64,000 nt of DNA. It comes from Echinarachnius parma. Its lineage: Eukaryota; Echinodermata; Echinoidea; Clypeasteroida; Echinarachniidae. Where the stretch lies: positions 199,001 to 263,000 of the forward strand of contig JBAMJV010003250.1 in assembly GCA_037951105.1 (NCBI GenBank), read 5' to 3'. The notes under the pieces are model-generated. The model did not search any database. It worked only from the letters and a program-made list of their open reading frames with translations, and was not told the DNA's origin. Both the position numbers and the translations under genes were made by a program. Below are positions 4,896 to 59,920 of this stretch, one piece after another (position 1 is the stretch's first letter; each line of letters starts with the position of its first letter).

Positions 4896-5020
4896 CTTGG
4901 AAATTTGGTCTTGGGACCAGTTAAAATTTGAAAAGGGGGGAATTCAAACCCCCCTAAAAAAAAATTTGGTCAAAGGGGGGGGGGGGGTTTGAACTCCCCT
5001 CCCCACCACTGGGTGGTGCT
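4440..5020. repeat. G-homopolymer-associated dispersed repeat
   Basis: It contains the motif CCTGGGTACGCCACTG (near 4616) and its inverse near 4676, which recurs near 8488 and in part near 23024 and 25486. G or C runs follow, including 30 Gs at 4865-4894. Degenerate GGCCGAGACCGAGA units fill the rest. Confidence 0.7.
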
Positions 5021-5023
5021 GGT

Positions 5024-5603
<580 letters not shown>

Positions 5604-12855: not shown

Positions 12856-12915
12856 TAAACAATTGCGTCACTCAATAACACTTTGTATGTATACCTGAAG
12901 TTTCACAATACTTAC

Positions 12916-13221
12916 GGGAACAAGTCAGTAGATCGCCTGCAGCAACAAAAGGATCAAGCGTTTCGAAACTGACATCTCCACCATTGTCCCGATCGTCATC
13001 GAAGTATCCTATGTTTATCCATACACCGCCGCTATAACATGCTCTGAACGCATCACCCTTGTCTGCCTTCCAACCATCAAACATATCAGGACACGTTAGA
13101 AAACAGAATGTTCCAAAGGGCAAGGGCTCGGTGTTTCCAGGCTTACAAAGGGGATCTTCGTAAAACGACGGGAGCAAAGAGGAGATCGCTGGGCTGTAGT
13201 CGGGTAGAGGTTCGCAAAATA
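12916..13221 (-). CDS. Orphan Sushi/CCP-like exon
   Basis: On the minus strand an acceptor (TTTCTCCAG) and a donor (GTAAGT) bound 306 nt open in one frame. It reads CEPLPDYSP, then CKPGN, FGTFCFLTCPD, RACYSGGVW and a final TCS. The order Cys, Phe-Gly-Thr-x-Cys, Cys, Cys-x-x-Gly-x-Trp, Cys fits a Sushi (CCP) module with a long acidic insert before the last cysteine. Such modules occur in secreted or membrane adhesion and complement-type proteins. No other exon of this gene was found nearby, so it may be part of a gene with large introns or a stranded exon. Confidence 0.55.
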
Positions 13222-13359
13222 CTGGAGAAAAAAAAACAGAGAGAGAGGGAGATGACAGCTATTCAAGATGAGGCTGGCTATGGGCCGTATGCATGGGGTC
13301 CCTTAAATAATACATGACGTCATGGAGAGGTAAATGATATGTATACAACCGTCGGAAAT

Positions 13360-17207: not shown

Positions 17208-17958
17208 CTTGTCCGTCTGTCAGTGGCTAACTGTAGTCGGTACACCACGTGTGATGAGTGTATCGGACCAGACGGGGCACAAGATGGCGACCCGTACTGC
17301 GGCTGGTGCACGCTGGAAGATAGGTACGAGGAATATCCGATTGTGTTCAATAATTTTACATTTCATTACATTTAAGATTAGATTCAATAAACCCGTTCAC
17401 TGCTAGGTTTTGAAATCCTCATCTAGAGTTCATACAGGGCCCACCAGATTTCGTAGGCAATGGTTTTAATTTAATTATTTTACCCACTGCCGTCAGTACA
17501 CAATCAAGTATGTTGAAACAATAATTCATAATTGTAATTTTGGTATAAAATAATGTTGCAACATTCATTCATTGCCCTTTTTAATGTAAATTCTGACTAT
17601 TATAATAATGTTCTCTATTCACTAAAGGTGCATAGAAAAATTACGCTATTGTAATTGTGGTCGTACACATAATGTGTTAGCTGCCGTACAGTTCAGAATA
17701 GTGTATGAGCAAAACTAGCACCTCTGTTGGCTTGCCACTCAATTTTCTTTTTTCCCTTTTTATCACTATTGCAAATTCTAAAATTTTCACTACTGTTCTC
17801 TGTCCATGCACCACAGATGCACAAGGTACCGCGACTGTGGTCGTATGGACGAACCTATGTTTGGTTGGTTGCCATACAGTGCAGAGCGGCAGCGGTGCAT
17901 CAACCTAACAGGTATATGTATGGCATTCAATGTTCCTGCATCCACCACTTCGCAACAG
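17208..17958 (+). CDS. PSI domain, copy 1 (exons 17208-17323 and 17817-17958)
   Basis: The first exon (phase 0 in, 2 out) encodes NCSRYTTCDECI and then DPYCGWC, the hallmark of plexin/semaphorin PSI domains. The second (phase 2 in, 0 out) encodes RCTRYRDC, a WL pair and the last cysteine. Together they give eight cysteines in PSI spacing. The acceptor at 17206-17207 follows a pyrimidine-rich tract, and the donors are GTACGA and GTCAGT. A donor-like GTATAT inside the second exon (after codon ACA) would give phase 1 and meets a stop in the next exon, so the later donor is preferred. In plexins and MET this small domain lies between the Sema propeller and the IPT repeats and orients the ectodomain. 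Confidence 0.8.
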
Positions 17959-20900
17959 GTCAGTCCATGCTTTGTTTCATCTTCCTCACAAAAATCCCAA
18001 CATTCATACATATCGGGTAAGAGTGAGAGAGCATTAAGTCGATTTGTTGTTAAGTTAAATGTTGCATTTTGCATACCTCTATTTGATGTCAAATTGTCTG
18101 ATATCAGGTATTTCTAATTTTGGGAATATTCATTACACAGAAATTTGCTAAATAAGCTTAATACGAGACTCCCAAGCTTCTTGCATGATTATCTCTTGAA
18201 GTACATGTACAAATATTCACTTAACGCCCTTCTGTCTCCCAACCAATATCTTATCAATGTTGAGAGTTTGTGTTTTTGGATATGTAGACCTACATACTAT
18301 ATTTTATTTTGTATTTGTATCAATGTTATCTATTTTTATGTTTTTTGTTTTGTTAAACAATGTTAAATGTCACATTCTATCGTTTGGTATTCTAATGGCG
18401 TCTAAATCCATATTGCGCTCTAAATTCCGATCACGGGAAAACTGTTCAATGGAGAAAATCACGCATATGTTTGAATGCACCATGAGCGGCATTAATTTAT
18501 ACGATAATACGCTCATAGAAAAGACTCAGAGCACAAGCGATTACTGTATGCAGATCCAATGCGCGCGCGCACAGCGTAGCGGAGAGGCGCTTGGCAACTA
18601 GCATAACAAATATTGCCTATGATATGTTCCCTGTTCCATTACATTATGTTTTGCTTCATTTTATGAGTTAACACATTTGTAGTTTATATTGAGAAACATG
18701 TATTTCTCTTTTTGTCTACCAAGCTTGTCCGTCTGTCAGTGGCTAACTGTAGTCGGTACACCACGTGTGATGAGTGTATCGGACCAGACGGGGCACAAGA
18801 TGGCGACCCGTACTGCGGCTGGTGCACGCTGGAAGATAGGTACGAGGAATATCCGATTGTGTTCAATAATTTTACATTTCATTACATTTAAGATTAGATT
18901 CAATAAACCCGTTCACTGCTAGGTTTTGAAATCCTCATCTAGAGTTCATACAGGGCCCACCAGATTTCGTAGGCAATGGTTTAATTTAATTATTTTACCC
19001 ACTGCCGTCAGTACACAATCAAGTATGTTGAAACAATAATTCATAATTGTAATTTTGGTATAAAATAATGTTGCAACATTCATTCATTGCCCTTTTTAAT
19101 GTAAATTCTGACTATTATAATAATGTTCTCTATTCACTAAAGGTGCATAGAAAAATTACGCTATTGTAATTGTGGTCGTACACATAATGTGTTAGCTGCC
19201 GTACAGTTCAGAATAGTGTATGAGCAAAACTAGCACCTCTGTTGGCTTGCCACTCAATTTTCTTTTTTCCCTTTTTATCACTATTGCAAATTCTAAAATT
19301 TTCACTACTGTTCTCTGTCCATGCACCACAGATGCACAAGGTACCGCGACTGTGGTCGTATGGACGAACCTATGTTTGGTTGGTTGCCATACAGTGCAGA
19401 GCGGCAGCGGTGCATCAACCTAACGGGTATATGTATGGCATTCAATGTTCCTGCATCCACCCCTTCGCAACAGGTCAGTCCATGCTTTGTTTCATCTTCC
19501 TCACAAAAATCCCAACATTCATACATATCGGGTAAGAGTGAGAGAGCATTAAGTCGATTTGTTGTTAAGTTAAATGTTGCATTTTGCATACCTCTATTTG
19601 ATGTCAAATTGTTTGATATCAGGTATTTCTAATTTTGGGAATATTCATTACACAGAAATTTGCTAAATAAGCTTAATACGAGACTCCCAAGCTCTTGCAT
19701 GATTATCTCTTGAAGTACATGTACAAATATTCACTTAACGCCCTTCTGTCTCCCAACCAATATCTTATCAATGTTGAGAGTTTGTGTTTCTGGATATGTA
19801 GGTCTACATACTATATTTTATTTTGTATTTGTAACAATGTTATCTATTTTTATGTTTTTTGTTTTGTTAAACAATGTTAAATGTCACATTCTATCGTTTG
19901 GTATTCAGCTTTGTTACCATTGACAACTTGATAGTCAGCACATTGCACAGCAAGCAGTTTTGTTGTTTATGTATGTAAACTATTCAAAATATGTCTTTAT
20001 GCCATATGTCACTGGATGCAGTGATAGCTGATCAGTTTCATTCTAAATGCAAATGCATATCAGTCACATAATATCGCCATATAGACGTATATTAATATTA
20101 TTCACATTTTAATAGGTATTTAGACAAATACGTACAATGAAAAGATGTTAACTTCATTATACGCAGATCTCCACGAGCCAGTTCCCTGCGCTGAACGAGG
20201 GGGCAAGTTATAGTACCATCCCATCCCCGGGAGATATCCCTGCCATACCATGCATACCAGCAGGCCAATGTGAGTACTTTAACCCCTTGCGTACGGGGAC
20301 ATTGTAGTCTATGTACGAAGTATATGTTGATTTCAGAATCACGAAGGGAACGGGTTAATACTGACTTATCTAGGTATTGGTATTTCAGCTCTTTCTGAAC
20401 CAAATTTGATAAAATCAAGTTTGTTCAGTCACTAAAATGGTATGCGCTTTTAAATTTGAGAGTCAGTTTTTCATTATCTCAAAACATTTGTTATTTCTCT
20501 TTAAACATTTTGTGGGTCAAACACACTTTATTTGCACAATGCAAATTGTTATGTTTTGTTTACTTTAACCATGCTTATATTTAACCTAAGTCTGATAACT
20601 TTACTTTGCTAATGACCAAGTGCTATTTCAATAACAAACTCAGTGTACTATTCATATCCTTATCATTTTGTTTCCGACTTGATTTCGTTGTAATAATGTA
20701 TTTACTAAAGGGATCTAGTTAATTTGTTGACATGTGCACAAGTGTTGAGTAGTTGATACAATGTACATGTATATGTTGTTATATGATATGTCCATTGGGT
20801 GTCGTGTGAAAATTTCAAGTTAAATGGACGTTGGCCGAGTAATGAGCGAAAATGCAAAGTGGTTTTCACCAACTCATTGCACTCACTTTGTACATGGTTT

Positions 20901-42295: not shown

Positions 42296-42479
42296 TATAT
42301 CAAGTTGTGTTTTATGTAATTGTTTTATTTTTATTTAGTGAATAAACCATTTTGATTAGATTGAACACGTGTAAACTGCATCACTTTCCTTTATATTGTT
42401 TTGAAAGGGGGGGGGGGTAGGGAAGTTCAATGTTCAATGTTCAATGTTCAAAGTAGTATGAGCGCGCATTTCTTTTTGT

Positions 42480-42742
42480 CAGATGCGCATCCAATAAGCG
42501 CGTCCCCCCTATTATAATTATTGTTTTACATGGCGCGTTTCATACTATGACGTCACTCACTAGTTGTTGGATACACAATCCACGTGTTAAAATTCACAGA
42601 GACAAACAAAATACAAGGGAATAACAATAACATGGAACAAGCTGTCCAAATCACGGAGGGGAGTAGATCTTGAACTTGTTATGGGACGACCGCCATCTTT
42701 GCAGTGAAGATTTCATCTTGATTTCTTTGCCGTTCGGAGATT
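42480..42742 (+). promoter_or_regulatory. Putative promoter and 5' UTR with CRE and uORF
   Basis: A perfect cAMP-response element TGACGTCA lies at 42548-42555, about 190 bp before the predicted start codon. A short upstream ORF of eight codons (42681-42707, starting MGRPP) precedes the main ATG and ends 35 bp before it. The transcription start is not known. Confidence 0.4.
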
Positions 42743-45700
42743 ATGGGATGCTGTCCTAATAAACACAAACATGTGAAAGGTGAGTGCAAGTATGAATTTA
42801 TAATGGATATTTGAAATTGGCCTGCACGTTAATAGCCACCATTTGGTGATTTGTGCGGTATTGACAAGACAAGACAAAACAAGACAATACATTTTATATT
42901 TGATTTTGTTTTGCTATCAGACGATTGCTAGACACAGACACCATGTAAACAAGCACACTCATCATACATTTGTCACGTTTCTCTCAGTAGAAAGGACCGG
43001 AGGCCTCGCACCCGCCAACACCTCACTGATACTATATCCAAAGTAACACGATTTGCAACTGCTTTTCTTTGCATGCCCCCGGACAATTCCATTTGCGAAT
43101 TCACCGCCAGCCAACAAAATAATAAAACGCGCCTGAAAAAGGAGAAATATAATGCTTAGCCTGGCTTGATTTCGCGCAGGCCTGCACGTATATAGTCACA
43201 ATATGGAGGCGATATATTATGTAGTATTGACGAGGCAAGACAAGACAAGACGAAGGGAAAGGGAATTTTCAGTGGCGCCAGAACTATACTCACTTGCCTA
43301 ACCTAACCAGATACACGCCAACAACGTCATTTTATTTCATCAGAGTAATCAAAAACACCCTTTGGTACAATCCTTTGTTATTTCCATTCTCTGTATAATT
43401 ATGTACAAGTAAACTGTATTAAAACCACTTTCATGTTTTCATCGAAACATCATTGAAAGCTTGAAATTAACTTGAACATTCATGGCTGTTATAATAACAG
43501 GAGTATTTCAAATTCAAGGATGTATTTGTCTTATTTGTCCAGTTGCGCCATTACCAGCATACCATCAAAAGACAGTTGGCGGAAAAGATGTGGTGGACAG
43601 ATCGACGCTTGTAAGTTGAATATCTTTTTCTTCTAATTTGTTTTGGTTATAATATAGTCTGCCTCCTTCGAACTTGAAGATTCTTGCAAACCGTAGGGGG
43701 TGGCAACTGCATGGAGATAAGCAGTGAGCAGTGATGTTAGGCACAGTTTTCAGACCTTAGTGAAAACTGTGCATGATACATTTACTAAATAAACCGCTAC
43801 TCAACACTTATTATGGCAAAAGAAAAGAAGAACAGAGGATTCGAACCCATGTTATCAAGAAAGTGTTGAAGTCTCTGTGTTGAAAAACTCTGTGGACCCC
43901 TTTGAAAATCAGCTGTGCTGAAAGGGCCATCCACCCTATGAGAGTAAATTAATAGATAAATAAATAAGTCCACAGCATGACCATTAGGCCACGTAAATTG
44001 CTGATGGTCAGAACGGTCTCATTGTGATTATAATCCTCAAAATCACCCAACCCCTAATCTAAGTTATGAATATTCATGAGTAGCCCTTGACCTACATAGC
44101 TGCTTATGAATAATTCATCAATCTCCAGTTGCCATCATACGGTTTAAAAATTCGCGGGGGGGGGGGGGGGGGACATTTGACAAAACTATAGAAAACATAT
44201 TTATAAGGGGAAATCTGTGCAAAATTAGGAAATAATACATAAGGTGTGCCCCCAGTCAGTCCGACCACGCTACGCCACTCAGTATATAATGAAATAAAGG
44301 AAGGAGTCTCATAGTCAAAACAACATGTTAGCATGTGCATTGGTCGATCTGTATGAACTATGTTATTATCATGATGTTGATGTCCGAATGAATCAAAGAT
44401 ATATTACAAAATAATTAAGTTTGTTATTATTGTGTTAATTGATAGGGCTAATTGGACGTATTCCCTGCACTATATCCCGCACATTCCTCGTTCATGTCGT
44501 CCGTTATATTTTGTTTTCTTAATATTCCTTGCTTATTGTTCTCATATTTCGAATGTCTCCATTTATTAATAGACGCACTAAAATACTAAATACTGTATAA
44601 ATAGTCAACGCTACTATGTAAATAGGTCAATTATCGTAGACTAACGATTTTATTGGCCAATCTCTGAAGGGTTTTATTGATAAAAAGTAATGCATGTTCA
44701 GATAATGTCGATGTTTAATGACTTGGCACACAGTATTATAAGCGGTACTATTTCACAAATTATCAAGAATTCCGTAATGAAATCAAGAAGGATAATACAT
44801 CTAAGAAAATATCTACAATGTAGTATATACAAATTTCCTTTCAGGCATTTCTTTTCTCTTATTTAATTCCCTTTTCTGTAGACGTCATCATCGGAGCATA
44901 AACAAACAGGTGAGTCAGTAAACTCAAATTTATTTTGTTTTATTGTCCAGTTTTTTGTTTTTATATGTGTGCACGATTGCCTTGATACCCCTCGGAATAT
45001 TTGTTTGAACATGTGTTCTCGTAATTGGTTTAAAAGACATGCCTAGCATTATCATGACCAAGTGGCTTGCTAATTTAATCGATCAATATAAATCCCATAG
45101 TTTTATTTGATTATGATTAAGGACTGACTTATATAGGTAACTATATGAAAAGTGTAGTTTGAATGATTGCCTTAAAGGGGTAGTTTAGTTTTGGTAAGGC
45201 TGAACTTTAATAACCAAACCTGGACAGTAACCTTATAAACTAATAGTAATAACTCCACCATGCTCAAAAGTAATACAAAATTACAAACGACTAAGTAAAA
45301 AGCACGTTATCATTCAAAAAGAGCCATTTAAACACAAGAGGTTTCAACCATTTTCCATACAAAATTATGCATGTGCTGTTTGATTGAAATAATGATTAAA
45401 TAGAGAAATCATCAACAAATAATTAAAAAACGATTTTGAAAATGTTTGTAAAAGTGCTAGCATTTTTAATTTTTTTTGAAAAAAACGTCTAATTATTTGG
45501 GCCCCAAATAATTATAAGATCAGATAGATTTATTGATATTTCAGCCGTTTCTGGGTCGATTTTGACCAAATAAAGTTTATTCTGCCATTAAAATTGCATG
45601 TTCTCTCAAATTCGACACTCAGTTTTTCATTACCTCACAAAAAAATTGTGATGTGCAGCGCCCTCTCTACCAAAACTAAACTACCCCTTTAAATTGAAAA

Positions 45701-48700
45701 CAAAGGCGTAATTATGATGTTAATAACCATATTGCTTTAATAATTTGTGGGAACCCAGCTCGATTTGAATCCCATGTAGTTATCTATAATCAAAAAAACT
45801 AAAATCTTGTAATACTTAGTAATTTTCAGAAGTTGTTTTGTTTAGTTGAAATTGCTATAGAAGCTCTGTTCATATATCTTGATCGAGGTGAACATATTGA
45901 ATGAACTGAGATTACAAATGTTGCAGATAATAACGTTGAACATGTTCATCGCAACATATCACACCGGAACCAGCCATACGGGTAAGAAAAGCAGCCGGAT
46001 AGGATCGGGCCAACTGCAAAACTATTACGTTATCAGTCGGCCCAATAAATAATATGCACTAAAGATTTTATATATTATTTTTGAAACAAACGATGCAGAT
46101 AATGAAGTCGGGCATGGCCAACGCGTCACATCTCATGGGAACCCCACGGACGGGCAGGAAAGCCAACCAAAGAGAATCGGTCCAACTACCAAACTATTAC
46201 GTAATCAGTCGGCCCAGACCAGTTCGTCTTTAGAAGTGGTGTTCCACAGAACAAAAGTAGGTATACAAATTCAAATTAGCATTTACATAGCTGCAGGGCT
46301 ATGTAATGATCGACAAACTTTGCTTTCTGGTGGATCCCTTATTTCCATCGAAAGTTCATCTTGCATTAATAACATTGATTGAAATATACACTTTTAACCA
46401 AATTGTGTGTAAAGTTAACTTTAAACTTAAAAAAACAACGCATCACGTACGTATGCAAATTAATGATATGTACATTTATTTTGTAATATTTTGTATTTTA
46501 CTTTTGCCGAATAAATTCAATTTAACTAAATGTTTTTTTTTTATAAGACTACCCACGCAGTAAGGCCTTCAAAGGGCAGATAGCTGGATAGTGGAACATC
46601 CCCTCAGACCTATATCGTCGAATCTGTTTAAAATTTAATTATTTAATCTGTTTGCTCATTCCCAATATTACTTTGTTTCTCAAACACACTATTCTAAAAT
46701 GTTGGTTGTGTATTATATTCCAGCTGTCCTTGGAGCTCCTGCCTCCACGCTATCCCAATTTGTTTCTGTGCAATGTCATCATGTAGGCATGTCGGATGGG
46801 ATAACGTGCCACTTTCTTTTCAATATTTATTCTGGAAAGACCAAAAGCACGGCCTGGGACCTGCTATTAAGTACTCAACTTGGCTATCTTGTATTATGGT
46901 TGACCAAAGAGGTACATGCACCAATGCCTAGGCAATCAGCTCTTCATGCCTCAGTTCCTCCCTATAAATTATGTCCTTCATATATCTCTGCTTCTCTGGC
47001 CATAAAACTATGTTTCCTGGCTTATTTAGAATATTATTCGTGTTTTTAGAGTGGATCAGCAGGATTCGGGTGTTGTTTTTGCTTCCTTCTAGGATGTGGA
47101 CCGTTCCGTATACCTTGCCCGGCCTCTATTTCCCTAGTCATATTTGGGTCTGTGAACTGAGTGAACATCTTTCAGCAATATTTCTGTATCCCTTTTCTTG
47201 ATAAACAGTTAGCAGTTATACAGGGTCCCACCCGTTACCATATACATATGTAACACAACTGATTGTCTCTTATCTTAATTTAGAAAAAGGGACACGTCAG
47301 CGATGGAGCTCACCACAGTACCGCCATGGGGACCCAAACCAACTCTTGCTCAGAGGTCACTTTGCAAACACGCGAACATCGGCAACAAGAAATACAAAGA
47401 CCACACAAATTAGAGAAGACGATGACGGGCAGAATCGCGCGGGAAAAGAAAGGCGATGCCGCAGTCGTCCAGCTTCCAGATGTTGAAACAGTCACAACCG
47501 AACCAAAGACCTATGATGATTTGGTTGTCGAGAACATCGAGGATGACGATGATGGTGTGATCTTTTTGGATCACCTGCCATCTGACATAATCCTCGTAAC
47601 AGGTAGCTATTCTATGTTGGTACAAATGATCCCATTAAATTTCCATACTCCAAAACAGCGGGTAAATTTAGCCCTTATTTATCTCGCATTATTTTATATT
47701 GCTCATTTTCAATCATTTAAAACGTTACTTTACTTTTTGTTCGCTTTAGCCAGTTTGTTATTCCATAATCTGCCCTTTTCTGTCTTAGTAATAGATTCAT
47801 CTGGACAGTGTTAAGTTAGGAGAACGCATTAACAATACATTAGGCTGATTGAGTTTTTATGTTGTACTCTCACTTCAAATTTGAATACAATGTATTTATA
47901 ATTATGTTCACATACAAACATGACTTTTATGTTGGTAAAGTATGAAGCAAATGCAGCTGGTTGGTTGACATACCGTACACTGCTTGATTCAAGCAATAAC
48001 CCACTTTCAATTCCATTCAATTCAACAGTTGCACCTATTGAGGACCAGGCAAGAAGTGATAAAGCTGTTCCTATTGCGGTCGAAAATGCCGTACAGGATG
48101 CCCGACAACAGAATACAACATCACCTCAAGGCAAGCGTCTCAAAGAGGACGGAAATGTGCGTGAGGATATCAATGAAACAGGTGTTCATAGACAGCAGAA
48201 TGTCGGCATCTCTTCTCCAAAACAGAGCCATGTAGTTGAACTCCAAACTGAGATCAGCACAGAAACAGAGAATAACCAACAAGATGTCACCACCTCTCCA
48301 GAACATTTATTTGAAAGTCCCACTGAGGGCACCACTGATTCACAGGGTAACCAAGAACACGGTGTTGATGTTTTTTCACAAGAAATTCCACAAGCAGTTG
48401 ATAGTGGAATAACACAAGAAACCGACGAAAAAACAGTTGAAACTTCTATGTTAGTGGTACTAGCAGCTCTAATCGCGGAAGATGACACGAACCAGCCAAG
48501 TTCAGAGGATGCCAAGGTAGACACTAATGTCCCAGATACGATGCCTTCAAGCAAGGATACCAACGATAGTGCTGATCCGAAAGTGGTAGAATTAGAAACA
48601 AATACGTCAAATACAAGTGAAATTCAGACAACCGGGACACCTTCGAAAAATTACATCGATATTAAGGATAAGCATAATCTATCATCAACCCTATCATCAG

Positions 48701-51700
48701 GCAAAGAACAAACTATAGATATAGATGTCATCTGTTCTGATGAAAGGCAGTCAAAAGCAACTGACATCAAACCTGACCAGGGGGAAGTTGATGAAAAGGA
48801 AGTTATCAAAACTGTGTCTATGACGAGCTTGACTGTTAAAGATGACAAAGTATTGGAAGCACATGAAAAAAATCCTCGGGTTCAGTCAGATACAACGTAC
48901 TTGTCGACTGCCAGTCACGAAGTAGAATCTGCAAGGAAAGTCATATCGGATACTAGAATACAACATACCCCTGCTTTCGAGTTACAAGTTGACCAACAGC
49001 GAGAAGCAACTTCTTCAGGACAAACAGACAAAGTTGTTGAACATCCTATCAAGGATAATATACACACAGGTGATATTCCATCTGGTGATGGACAGACGAA
49101 ATCCACTGAGGACGACAATCTACCTGGGCACGAGCTAGACAAGGAGGTTATTAAAACCGTGTCGATGACGAGCCTGACTGTCGTAGATGATAAGGTATTG
49201 GAAGCACCTAAAAAGAATCCCAGGGTTCAATCAGATACGACGGATTTGCCAACTGCTATTCATGACATTGAATCTTCAAAGAAAGCCCTATCGGATTCTA
49301 GAATACAACATACCCCTGCTTTCGATGTACAAGGTGACCAACAGCGATCAGCAAACTCTTCAAGGCAGCCAGACCAAGATGTTGAACGTTATATTAAGGA
49401 TACTATACAAACAGGTGAAATTGCATCTGGTGATGGACAGACGAAATCAACTGGGGTCGACAACCTTTCTGGACGTGAGGTAGAAAAAGAGGTTATTAAA
49501 ACCGTGTCGATGACGAGCTTGACTGTGGTAGATGACAAACTATTGGAAGCACCTGAAGAGAATCCAAGAGTTCAATCTGATACGACTTACTTGTCAACTG
49601 CTATTCATGACATTGAATCTTCAAAGAAAGCCCTATCGGATTCTAAAATACAACATGCCCCTGCTTTCAATGTACAAGGTGACCAACAGCGACCAGCAAA
49701 CTCTTCAGGGCAGCCATACCAAGATGTTGAACGTTCTATTAAGGATACTATACACACAGGTGATATTGCATCTAGTGATGGACAGATGGAATCAGCTGTG
49801 GTCGACAACCTTTCTAGGCGTGAGGTAGAAAAGGAGGTTATTAAAACCGTGTCGATGACGAGCTTGACTGTCGTAGACAACAAAGTACTGGAAGCACATG
49901 AAAAGAATCCCAGGGTTCAATCAGATAAGACGGACTTGTCGACTGCCAGTCACGAAGTAGAATCTGCAAGGAAAGCCCTATCAGATACTAGACTACCACA
50001 TAACCCTGCTTTCGAGTTACAAGTTGACCAACAGCGAGATCCAACTTCTTCAGGACGGACAGACCAAGATGTTGAACGTTCTATTAAGGATACTATACGC
50101 ACAGGTGAAATTGCATCTAGTGATGGACAGACGAAATCAGCTGGGGTCGACAAACTTTCTGGGCATGAGGTAGAAAAGGAGGTTATTAAAACCGTGTCCA
50201 TGACAAGCTTGACTGTCGTAGACAACAAAGTACTGGAGGCACCTGAAAAGAATCCCAGGGTTCAATCAGATACAACCGACTTGTCGACTGCCAGTTACGA
50301 AGTAGAATCTGCCAGGAAAGCCCTATCAGATACTAGACTACCACATACCCCTGCTTTCGAATTACAAGGTGACCAACAGCGAGATCCAACTTCTTCAGGA
50401 CGGACAGACCAAGATGTTGAACGTCCTATCAAGGATAGTATACACACAGATGAAATTTCATCTGGTGGTGGACAGACGAAATCAGCTGGGGTCGACAACG
50501 TTTCTGAGCAAGAGGTAGAAAAAGAGGTTATTAAAACCGTGTCGATGACGAGCCTGACTGTTGTAGATGACAAAGTATTGGAAGCACCTGAAAAGAATCC
50601 TCGGGTTCAGTCAGATACAACGGACTTGTCGACTGCCAGTCACGAAGTAGAATCTGCAAGGAAAGCCCTATCAGATACTAGACTACCACATACCCCTGCT
50701 TTCGAGTTACAAGGTGACCAACAGCAAGAAGCAACTTCTTCAGGACAGACAGAACAAGATGTTGAACATCCTATCGAGGATAATATACACACAGGTGATA
50801 TTCCATCTGGTGATGGACAGACGGAATCCACTAAGGACGACAACCTTTCTGGGCGTGAGGTAGAAAAGGAGGTTATTAAAACCGTGTCGATGACGAGCTT
50901 AACTGTGGTAGATGACAAAGTGTTGGAAGCACCTGAGAAGAATCCAAGAGTTCAATCAGATACGACCGACTTGTCAACTGCTATTCATGACGTGGACATG
51001 TCTAAGAAAGCTGTATCAGATAGTAGAATACAACATACCCCAGTGTTCGCTTCCAAACAGCGTGGACAACAGTCCGAAACCACCCCACCGGTACAGAAAA
51101 ACAAAGATACCATAGATGAATCAGAGGAACAACGAGAAAAAGAAGTAATCACATCTGGAGATGAGCTATTGAAACGCAGTGACATCGACAACCAACAATT
51201 AGATGTCAAAGAAGTAATCAAAACGGTTTCTATGACAAGTATAACTGTCGTAGATGACAAGGTAATAGAAAAGACAGGTCGGAACCCCAAAGTCCAGTCG
51301 GACATTTCGGATCTGACGACCGCTGTTCGAGAAATCGATTCTGGAAAGAAAGCCCTATCGGACACTGGAGTGCCGCACTCTGCTGCATTCACTTTAGAAC
51401 AGGAAAGTGTTGCTGAAGCCCTACCCACAGTTGCTGCACCACATGATCCGACGGACAGACCAACAGGGATTGAATCAGATACATGTACTAGTAATATTAA
51501 TCATAAGAACTCTACACATCCACAACGAAGTGGTGTAAGGGTTCCACCAAAAGAAGTCAACATTGAAAAGCTTGACAAAGAAACGACCCCGATGCAAACA
51601 GGCTCGCAACATTCCGAACAGCCCGAGACAAACGTCAATCTTGATGATGAAACACAGGGTGATCTCGACCAAAATGGACCTAAACCTGCAGAATCCGTTA

Positions 51701-52311
51701 AACAACAGACAAAAGCCATTCAAGAAAAGAGTAGAACAAGTATTCGGCAACCAGAAGAGCCTCTTTTAAAAAATAAACAAAGCATCCCTGATAAAGGGGA
51801 CGATAGGGAGAAGAAAGGACTGGATGATGAAGTCGAGGAAAATAATGTAGAAACAGTTGATGGTGTTAAGGCACATGATGAAGAATCTGATACTCCTTCT
51901 GCTGTAGCACCTAAAAACATAACAACTGTTGCTGTGTGGAATCCACCAATTTTCAGTGCTTTTAAACCTTTCCATGATGTTAATACACTTCAGCCTGAAG
52001 ATCTGCATAACGGAAATGTTGAGGGTAGTCCTGCAGAGAAACCTGACACAACTGAAGATCAGTACCCTATTGAATCTGATAAAGATGCTGATGTTAATGG
52101 TGGAAACAAAGTTGCCCCTACAGAACAACATTCTAAAAACGATCATAATTTATCAGAGAATGAACAATCTGAACGATCATCAGAAAAGAAAGGGGACTCG
52201 GTGAGAAATATTACTGATGGTCAGCAGTATACATTCGTGCCCATAAAACCAGCATCGTCCTCCGTGTCTAATGGTGCCAAAATGACAAACGAGCCCTATG
52301 CGGATGGATAG
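42743..52311 (+). CDS. Acylation-signal protein with eight 115-residue repeats (novel family)
   Basis: Exons 42743-42779, 43543-43610, 44882-44909, 46099-46256, 47284-47602 and 48029-52311 join in phase (1, 0, 1, 0, 1) for 4893 nt, 1630 residues. The N-terminus MGCCPNKHKHVK has Gly2 for N-myristoylation, Cys3 and Cys4 for palmitoylation and a basic patch, so membrane attachment is likely. The middle (APLPAYHQKTVGG..., then an acidic DDDD stretch near the end of exon 5) is polar. The large last exon holds eight repeats starting KEVIKTVSMTSLTV from 48796, then a charged tail to the TAG. The composition is mostly Ser, Thr, Asp, Glu, Gln and Lys, with few aromatics, as in disordered scaffolds. 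I recognise no catalytic domain and no named family. An AATAAA at 52390 fits a 3' end. The large exon is certain; the upstream exons rest on splice signals and phase. Confidence 0.8.
45172..45692. mobile_element. TTAA-flanked MITE, second family
   Basis: Ends TTAAAGGGGTAGTTTAG and its inverse. Shares ATTACAAACGACTA and TTTCAGCCGTTTCTG-type blocks with 30991-31513. It lies in an intron of the repeat-protein gene. Confidence 0.85.
45927..45981 (+). other. Duplicated exon with frame-breaking phase (possible poison exon)
   Basis: The segment after GTTGCAG resembles the start of the 46099 exon (both begin ATAAT after CAG). Its downstream 'intron' still resembles the 3' half of that exon (CAAACTATTACG..ATCAGTCGGCCCA in both). 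It has an acceptor and a donor (GTAAGA), enters in phase 1 and leaves in phase 2, so inclusion before 46099 produces an immediate stop. Without the donor it also hits TAA. Confidence 0.55.
46690..47210. other. Unexplained moderately GC-rich segment in an intron
   Basis: A 116-codon open frame (46699-47049) runs through it but matches no family I know, and no splice signals tie it to the host gene. It may be a retroelement fragment. Confidence 0.4.
48796..51410 (+). repeat. Eight tandem 345-bp coding repeats
   Basis: Units start at 48796, 49141, 49486, 49831, 50176, 50521, 50866 and 51208, an exact 345-bp period except the seventh (342 bp). Each begins KEVIKTVSMTS and continues with NPRVQSD, a helical SARKALSD segment, HTPAF, a variable Gln/Ser part and an acidic end. 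Units 4 to 6 are the most alike; unit 8 keeps only the first 65 residues or so. KALSDT preceded by a basic residue looks like a basophilic-kinase site, and HTP like a proline-directed site. Confidence 0.97.
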
Positions 52312-52389: not shown

Positions 52390-52395
52390 TAATAA
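52390..52395 (+). terminator. Polyadenylation signal of the repeat-protein gene
   Basis: AATAAA lies 79 bp after the TAG stop at 52309-52311, in AT-rich context. No other gene is near on this strand. Confidence 0.55.
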
Positions 52396-52679
52396 AATGT
52401 GGTTATAGCCTACATGTAAGTTTAGTTTATGTTATTTTCCATTTATTTCAATGAATATAAGGATGGAAAGGAGTCTGAATTTCATGACAAATTATTGATG
52501 ATAAATAATACATTATTTGTATCCAGAGGATAAGTAGTACTTTTTTCTTTTTTTGGGGGGGGGGGGGGGGGGGGCGGGGTTCACAAATATCCCAAAACGA
52601 ACTTAACACTAAGATGACTTTTAAAGTATGGAACGCCATTAGTATCTTTGTAAAATTGGTAAACAAGTTATTTTATTAA

Positions 52680-53312
52680 CAGGCATACAAGTTTCATTAC
52701 GATCATTAATATTTGATTTCATCAAAATGACTTTGAGGGATGTATTTTTATGAAGTTTCAAATAATTATTACCATTTAGGCTCTTGAATATATTTCATTA
52801 CGAAGCACGGATGGCCTACCATAGTTCTAAGTCCATTTTAAGATTTAAATTTGACTTGAGATCTTTGTGATCACCCGGTGATAAGTAATTGCACGATATG
52901 TTTATGTGAGTGTATCAATGTTAGTATATTAGTGTGGTTGCGTGCATGTATAGTAAACATCAAATGGAGGTGAAATGAACAGTGTGGATTATTCAGCTCC
53001 ATTTAAAATGACCCATTATCTTTAAATCTTCTGCCAAAAGTAATATTTGAGGCTTCAATCATATACCAAATTTGTTGTTAGATTCTTCAGAATGATACAC
53101 ATGTATGAGATTTTTATAGAAAAAGAATGTTTACCTAGAAAAAAATTAAAATTACCTTTCGCTTTCAAGTTCAATCTTAAATATCTCCATAATAATAGGG
53201 AGACATTTGAAAAATCAAAATCTGTTACCACAAGCCAAACAACGTACAAGAGACGTGGGAAAGCTGCATGTAATTTTGGTTGAATTTTACAAAGTTAACG
53301 GATCACTTTAAC
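52680..53312. repeat. Dispersed repeat, third family
   Basis: ACATTTGAAAAATC, AGCCAAACAACGTACAAGAG and TTAACGGATCACTTTAA recur in 58630-59200 and in part near 36255-36320. Probably a MITE of several hundred bp. Confidence 0.55.
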
Positions 53313-59300: not shown

Positions 59301-59920
59301 TATTAAATTGCATTGCCTTACATTAAGGAATCAGGTACCCATGGATGAAATAAATACCTGTCGATCAGTATTTAGGATTTTGTTTGTACATCAAACTGCC
59401 AAAAAAAGCACTTTCTGTTGGAATGAAAAACATTTCATCAGAAGTTGCCAATTTCGCTTTGAAAAATCAGGGAATGGATTCACTATCCAGGATACTGGAT
59501 GCATCTGGGCAGCGATATCACAGACCAGTTCTAATACCACTAAGTTATTTGTACCTTGCAGGGACAAAATTTAGAAGAAAAACAATTTGGGGGCTACTTT
59601 CAACCTTGCCTGCAGGAAAATAACATTCCGAAATTGAAATTGCATTCTCTATGCAAATTTTTGGGGGTATCTTCATGATTTTTAGGGGCATTTCTGGGGC
59701 GCAATTCGCTGACCAGTTCTAATACTACTAAATTATTTGTACCTTGGTGCTTGCTCCCGCTACGGAACTGGAGACGCAGGCTGCGGCCAAACAGAGCCAA
59801 CCCACTCATGAGCTGCTGGGCGTAGGGGACGGAGACATCATGCTTGAATTCCACAAACGCAAAGCTCTTTTGTCTGCCCTCCCGGTCCTTTGGTATGTTG
59901 ACGTGCTTGAGGGGACCAGC
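56363..59920 (-). CDS. RBM7-like: RBM7/RBM11-type RNA-binding protein (5' incomplete)
   Basis: Minus-strand exons 59920-59743, 58564-58316, 57186-57078 and 56762-56363 join in phase (1, 1, 2) to 936 nt, 311 residues plus stop. The first encodes the second half of an RRM: AGPLKHVNIPKDREG, the RNP1 octamer KSFAFVEF, and then HDVSVPYAQQLMSG and LQFRSGS, the pattern of vertebrate RBM7. RBM7 is the RNA-binding subunit of the nuclear exosome targeting (NEXT) complex with ZCCHC8 and MTR4, acting on promoter upstream transcripts and snRNA in the nucleus. The next exons are Pro/Met/Gly-rich with HRSASAPDAL, which aligns with the phosphorylated RSFSSPE site of human RBM7. The last is rich in Arg, Asp, Ser and Tyr. 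The RNP2 half of the RRM and the start codon are missing, presumably in an exon beyond 64000. RBM11 is the alternative paralogue. Confidence 0.88.
56802..57018 (-). mobile_element. TTAA-type MITE fragment in the RBM7-like gene
   Basis: Reverse-orientation part: AAGGAATCTAGTAACATTG, then GTTCTCTCATAGCTTGTTG. It fills most of the last intron. Confidence 0.6.
58630..59205. repeat. Dispersed repeat, third family, in the RBM7-like gene
   Basis: Related to 52680-53312 (GATGGCCTGCCGTAGATTT, ACATTTGAAAAAATC, AAGCTAAACAACACG). Internal 30-bp duplication of TACAGATGGTACGGAATTCA (near 58867 and 58898). Confidence 0.6.

Follow-up and report, generated by a model that had tools for sequence, protein, structure and literature searches.

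A genuine repeat gene of Echinarachnius parma with a predicted lipid anchor, no family match, and eight or fourteen copies of a constrained 62-residue core

Acylated N-termini on long, largely acidic disordered chains are found in AKAP12/gravin, MARCKS, GAP43 and BASP1, and ERICH5 (glutamate-rich protein 5) begins with MGC. PYCO1 and EPYC1 bind Rubisco in the pyrenoid and are positively charged, the stickers of PYCO1 are aromatic, and to our knowledge neither protein carries a lipid anchor. PYCO1 is described as having six repeats of ~80 residues, the N-terminal half of which is highly conserved (PMC10288592). Ser phosphorylation is reported to regulate the docking helix of smAKAP (C2orf88, AKAP19; PMC13025221) and that ERICH5 is a substrate of human NMT1/2, its G2A mutant losing the labelling (PMC8689648). 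Here we analyse a gene at positions 42743..52311 (+) of a 64,000-nucleotide stretch of Echinarachnius parma DNA, which we call the window (assembly GCA_037951105.1, contig JBAMJV010003250.1, forward-strand positions 199,001 to 263,000). The repeat gene is genuine and under selection, matches no family in the collections searched, and is ordinary in kind, though unusual in its repeat unit and in the variation between its copies.

The span given by a first-pass annotation of the window proved exact: the ATG lies at 42743, the stop ends at 52311, and six exons bordered by GT and AG (numbered 1, 2, 3, 5, 6 and 7) join in a single reading frame that spans 1,630 codons and a stop. Exon 1 (42743..42779), with the donor GTGAGT, codes for MGCCPNKHKHVK, in which N-myristoylation is predicted at Gly2 and S-palmitoylation at Cys3 and Cys4. 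Exons 2 (43543..43610, with AG/GT borders), 3 (44882..44909) and 5 (46099..46256) are in frame and retained in the second copy of the gene described below. The end of exon 6 (47284..47602) supplies most of the protein's most hydrophobic stretch (VIFLDHLPSDIILVT), and the two copies share every residue from VVQLPDVETV onwards to the end of the exon. The last coding exon, exon 7 (48029..52311), comprises 4,283 nt with 1,426 complete codons plus stop, and base composition alone would give a run of 1,428 codons free of stops by chance with a probability of ~1e-39. Within this exon the annotation had noticed eight long repeats, which we locate at 48793..51549 (+), starting at 48793, 49138, 49483, 49828, 50173, 50518, 50863 and 51205. 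Each is ~115 residues long (seven of 345 nt, one of 342) and consists of a 62-residue core and a ~53-residue linker. Tandem Repeats Finder counts 6.5 copies, repeats 7 and 8 being more diverged; repeat 8, whose core occupies 51205..51390, is the most diverged of all and has kept the core motif, not the linker.

The gene structure, the start codon, the acylation motif and the array of repeats are all strengthened by a second, intact copy. In the 1.2-Gb assembly of 14,790 contigs, where the counts are lower bounds from the best candidates scored, the repeat occurs in at least 22 places, all of them on the window's own contig (C3249, eight) or on contig C6623 (fourteen). The N-terminal 458 residues, searched to an E value of 10, match in at least 10 places, again confined to these contigs. 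Neither search detected a further paralogue in the assembly, and a dispersed repeat or transposon can be rejected because, among the candidates scored, the repeat and the N-terminal part occur at two loci only of the 1.2-Gb assembly. The C6623 copy shares all six coding exons, with their phases and splice sites, starts with MGCCPT, and encodes an intact protein of 2,324 residues with fourteen repeats. Outside the array, the coding gaps between the copies number three, of 3, 6 and 3 nt, and 67 of 89 gaps in introns 1-4 and 5 of 7 in intron 5 are not multiples of three. The ratio of nonsynonymous to synonymous divergence (dN/dS) is 0.46 for the N-terminal part (0.033/0.071; 21 silent and 34 replacement changes) and 0.67 for the C-terminal part (0.038/0.057; 13.5 silent and 31.5 replacement changes), so that the flanks of the array are under weak constraint. 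A chance open reading frame or a pseudogene is rejected on the joined frame, the intact second copy, the gap pattern and the long stop-free run. Judged from its sequence, the gene that contains the repeat is real, coding and under selection.

We considered whether the fourteen-repeat copy is the other haplotype at this locus or a recent paralogue produced by segmental duplication. In the sampled stretches of the two contigs, C6623 is inverted and collinear: it follows the window from ~16.5 kb to 60 kb, and parts of C3249 as far as 330 kb, in blocks ~78-99% identical and interrupted by many indels. This uneven identity would suit a paralogue, as would the behaviour of the left side of this partly sampled comparison: left of ~16.5 kb (window 1-16.5 kb; C3249 130-140 and 150-160 kb) there are scattered matches only and no ordered match to C6623, and C3249 150-160 kb has a single C6623 match, of 794 bp, that is out of order. 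Against a paralogue, the copies are collinear in stretches sampled over ~110 kb, with the neighbouring gene included. Control genes for the presence of two haplotypes bear on both sides of the question. Matches of RNA polymerase beta type occupy two pairs of contigs with identical profile ranges, and two of three Nop-domain genes fall on two or three contigs, the remaining one on a single contig, as a paralogue reading would allow. Because four of the five control genes occupy at least two contigs, as the repeat gene does (by profile matches rather than comparison of their DNA), we conclude that the assembly largely holds both haplotypes. Taken together, the sequence comparisons make C6623 very probably the other haplotype, and leave a recent paralogue only a slim chance.

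The cores of the repeats are under purifying selection, whereas the linkers are near neutrality. Over all 22 copies, the core (the first 62 residues) has 26 invariant positions, with the motif KEVIKTVSMTSLTVVDDKVLE...NPRVQSD...TA...KKALSD...H..AF. Core and linker were compared over repeats 1-6 of 8 and 1-12 of 14, the last two of each array being excluded because their linkers are unalignable. For the window array, the ratio of nonsynonymous to synonymous differences per site (pN/pS) is 0.25 in cores (bootstrap 0.15-0.44) and 1.37 in linkers (0.85-3.44); for the other array the values are 0.27 (0.14-0.49) and 0.82 (0.51-1.57). Permutation of codon columns reached the difference between core and linker in 0 of 500 trials for the window copy and 1 of 500 for the other, and the core value computed with all eight or all fourteen repeats is 0.26 in both copies. 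The repeat 8 core stands apart from repeats 1-7 with a pS of 0.757 and a pN of 0.215, and this combination of a large synonymous distance with a low pN implies that the core motif predates recent homogenisation.

Between the two arrays, repeat 7 of the window corresponds to repeat 13 of the second copy at 98%, repeat 8 to its repeat 14 at 97%, and repeat 2 to its repeat 2 at 96%. The remaining inner repeats cannot be paired clearly one to one, a pattern that unequal exchange inside the array would be expected to produce. We also observe that, over 48793-50862, synonymous divergence is higher in cores than in linkers, an excess that cannot be put down to simple homogenisation of whole units.

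The N-terminus of the protein is predicted to be dual-acylated and the protein to be anchored to a membrane. The annotation had read MGCCPN with following basic residues as a signal for myristoylation plus palmitoylation, and the first half of that statement holds as a motif prediction: MGCCPNK, like the MGCCPTK of the other copy, matches the PROSITE-type N-myristoylation pattern (an initiator Met, then Gly and a permissive hexapeptide), and Cys residues adjoin it. The basic content is modest, however, with three Lys and two His within positions 7-12. This prediction depends on exon 1 being the true start. If that exon belonged elsewhere, the product would be a soluble protein initiated downstream, for instance at an internal Met, and it is fair to note that the gene model derives from sequence alone and that exons 1-3 are short. 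The exon 1 frame, its donor and the 300-bp block upstream (42443..42742, +), probably promoter and 5' untranslated region, are nevertheless conserved between the copies, and an in-frame TGA precedes the ATG by 24 nt. The 300-bp block aligns with 287 identities, 11 mismatches and 4 gap columns, and the next 300 bp align poorly, with 159 identities, 62 mismatches and 158 gap columns. The drop in conservation beyond 300 bp and the in-frame stop together suggest that the gene's 5' end truly lies at exon 1, and we regard a downstream start as quite improbable.

We suggest that this gene, at a single locus, encodes a multivalent scaffold that is dual-acylated, tethered to a membrane and mostly disordered. 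Its cores would be phospho-switchable docking sites, and its valence would differ from allele to allele. In our judgement this proposal has an even chance of being correct. Translation would begin at MGCC, and N-myristoyltransferase and palmitoyltransferases would attach the N-terminus to a membrane on its cytoplasmic side. From there a chain of 1,630 or 2,324 residues, mostly disordered to judge by composition, would reach into the cytosol. Its eight or fourteen 62-residue cores, spaced by acidic and nearly unconstrained linkers, would dock one partner repeatedly, and three basic-x-x-Ser sites per core, together with a Thr-Pro present in 15 of the 22 copies, would be kinase targets that switch the docking. 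Unequal exchange in the array would then alter the number of sites, so that alleles, if such they are, differ in valence as the copies do in repeat number (8 and 14). In other words, we infer docking and phospho-switching of the cores, with variation in valence as part of the function.

The composition of the protein is compatible with this proposal and also with others. Charged residues make up 30% of the whole protein, the net charge is -119, aromatic residues and Cys are few, and the charge-hydropathy relation predicts disorder, in keeping with the annotation's description of a charged, disordered protein. A single 62-residue core, however, scores 0.436, just past the boundary of 0.431 and so marginally ordered, so that the word disordered suits the linkers and flanks better than the cores. 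Repeats of this kind could act solely as an entropic spacer or membrane brush, giving length and charge at the membrane while their residues bind nothing; the high charge, the scarcity of aromatics and Cys, the predicted disorder and the variable repeat number all agree with such a role. It is harder to reconcile with cores that are under clear purifying selection when linkers are not, with a repeat 8 that retains the core motif despite its large synonymous distance, or with the conservation of KEVIKTVS.TS.T or NP.VQSD, which would be unexpected in a pure spacer, and we think it unlikely. An acylation motif at the head of an acidic disordered chain likewise recalls phosphoinositide-sequestering proteins of the MARCKS/GAP43/BASP1 type, but the lysine-rich effector segment is missing, the best 25-residue window reaching a net charge of just +5, and this assignment is very improbable. 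A transmembrane segment was rejected, since the best 19-residue hydropathy is 1.67 and charged residues lie within that stretch. Exon 6 contains MGTQTNS, a single occurrence of what we take to be the LC8-type TQT motif and a candidate only.

The scaffold proposal draws its switching element from the Ser residues of the core. Three of the four invariant core Ser have a basic residue at -3, in 22/22, 22/22 and 21/22 copies; given eight basic residues per 62, the chance of at least three of four is ~0.008, by a test picked post hoc. The same sites would also serve a membrane-anchored kinase scaffold of the AKAP kind, smAKAP for example, which would recruit a kinase to the membrane with the repeats as its substrates. 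To these repeated basic-x-x-Ser sites that reading can add the dual-acylation start that the present protein shares with smAKAP (PMC13025221). It is opposed by the lack of a family match above cut-off and by the distribution of helix motifs: the AKAP helix consensus occurs four times in the protein and in none of those cases within the repeats. Since 500 shuffled sequences averaged 0.87 matches and reached as many as 6, four loose matches are not clearly above chance, and the kinase-scaffold reading seems to us unlikely.

Several observations weigh against our own proposal of switchable docking cores. In the whole protein, [RK]xx[ST] sites number 41 against a shuffled mean of 36 and are thus barely enriched. 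Linkers have a lower pS than cores (0.115 and 0.302, respectively, in the window copy; 0.142 and 0.210 in the C6623 copy), which inflates the contrast in ratio between core and linker; pN alone is still about twice as high in linkers. Moreover, the constraint on cores is deduced from repeats that may swap sequence among themselves.

The annotation also called the protein undescribed, and this stands for the sources that we searched. Pfam and NCBIfam were queried with the N-terminal 458 residues, with the last exon and with a pair of repeats; the full set of eight repeats was run against Pfam as well, and the last exon against PHROGs. With the curated profile score (Pfam, NCBIfam) or an E value of 0.01 (PHROGs) as cut-off, no family in the three collections was found above it. 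Matches below threshold were SNURF in Pfam (E 0.16) and, in NCBIfam, ZapA (E 1.1e-6; 28.4 bits, cut-off 80), HpnA (E 1.9e-6; 27 against 368) and TolC (E 0.031; 13.3 against 225), which we take as chance on a repetitive query. A PDB sequence search with the last exon gave no match up to E 10, and one with the repeat profile returned ribosomal L20 alone (E 0.69-0.70). Among 183 pattern matches in viral and 108 in prokaryotic contigs no relative was confirmed, and text searches of the literature, 'MGCCPN' included, found nothing on this gene in titles or the starts of abstracts among the records listed. On these profile, structure and text searches the status of new family is provisional, and the same gene may well exist as an unnamed predicted protein in other echinoderms. 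More speculatively, it might represent an unnamed and perhaps echinoderm-restricted family of lipid-anchored scaffolds with a kinase-switchable 62-residue docking module, in which the number of sites (8 or 14) is a natural allele that tunes membrane clustering; taken as a whole, this idea is tentative. Were the scaffold proposal true, natural alleles of one gene would span 8 to 14 scaffold sites and provide a ready-made experiment on multivalency in membrane signalling and clustering. The abrupt change from constrained core to free linker also defines a 62-residue bait peptide.

Other features of the gene and its surroundings can be stated briefly. A decayed, noncoding tandem duplicate of the exon 5 region (45914..46044, +) is 74% identical to 46086-46216 and encloses exon-like block 4, which was rejected as a real alternative exon: in-frame stops occur in the duplicate in both the window and the second copy, and the second copy has no GT at the donor. 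Across this duplication (45914-46216), the first duplicate in the second copy, with its GT donor absent, has retained a longer open stretch. Downstream of the stop lie a possible polyadenylation signal AATAAA (52391..52396, +) and further candidates at 53145 (ATTAAA) and 53422 (AATAAA). The neighbouring minus-strand gene (59600-59920, further exons probably to ~56300) encodes an RRM most similar to that of RNA-binding protein 7 (PDB 5iqq, E 7.9e-21), with Pro-rich and Arg/Ser/Asp-rich frames near by; it and the repeat gene are arranged tail to tail, and it lies in blocks that are 91-98% identical between the copies. The mitochondrial contig of the assembly encodes a COX1 that translates well when AAA is taken as Asn (table 9), and its gene order is cox1, trnR, nad4L (assigned by eye), cox2, trnK; both traits are characteristic of echinoderms. 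Elsewhere in the window, a perfect (CTA)147 microsatellite of 441 bp adjoins a (TGC)49 tract with 90% matches (5017-5603), and nearly identical 111-residue frames ~1.5 kb apart (17782-18117 and 19297-19632) suggest a recent tandem duplication. A Cys-containing frame of 128 residues (12872-13258, -) looks by eye like a secreted domain of the sushi type.

How, then, does this protein compare with the systems described at the outset? Unlike AKAP12/gravin, MARCKS, GAP43 and BASP1, it has no Pfam match over cut-off and no Lys-rich effector domain. Its likeness to ERICH5 would extend to the start and the general composition only. smAKAP is a small protein that binds PKA-RI through one helix, and the present protein has in common with it a start of the dual-acylation type. 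The repeats invite a different comparison. As in PYCO1 and EPYC1, the algal Rubisco linkers, and by analogy only, a mostly disordered repeat protein would carry one conserved motif per repeat as a sticker; in both copies of the gene, conserved motif copies are separated by variable linkers that are predicted to be disordered. In contrast to these proteins, it is acidic, has a predicted lipid anchor, and has a core consensus with one Phe and no Trp or Tyr. The closest working analogue would be a sticker-and-spacer scaffold of the PYCO1 type with the addition of a lipid anchor like that of smAKAP or ERICH5, although the protein itself would be a member of none of these groups.
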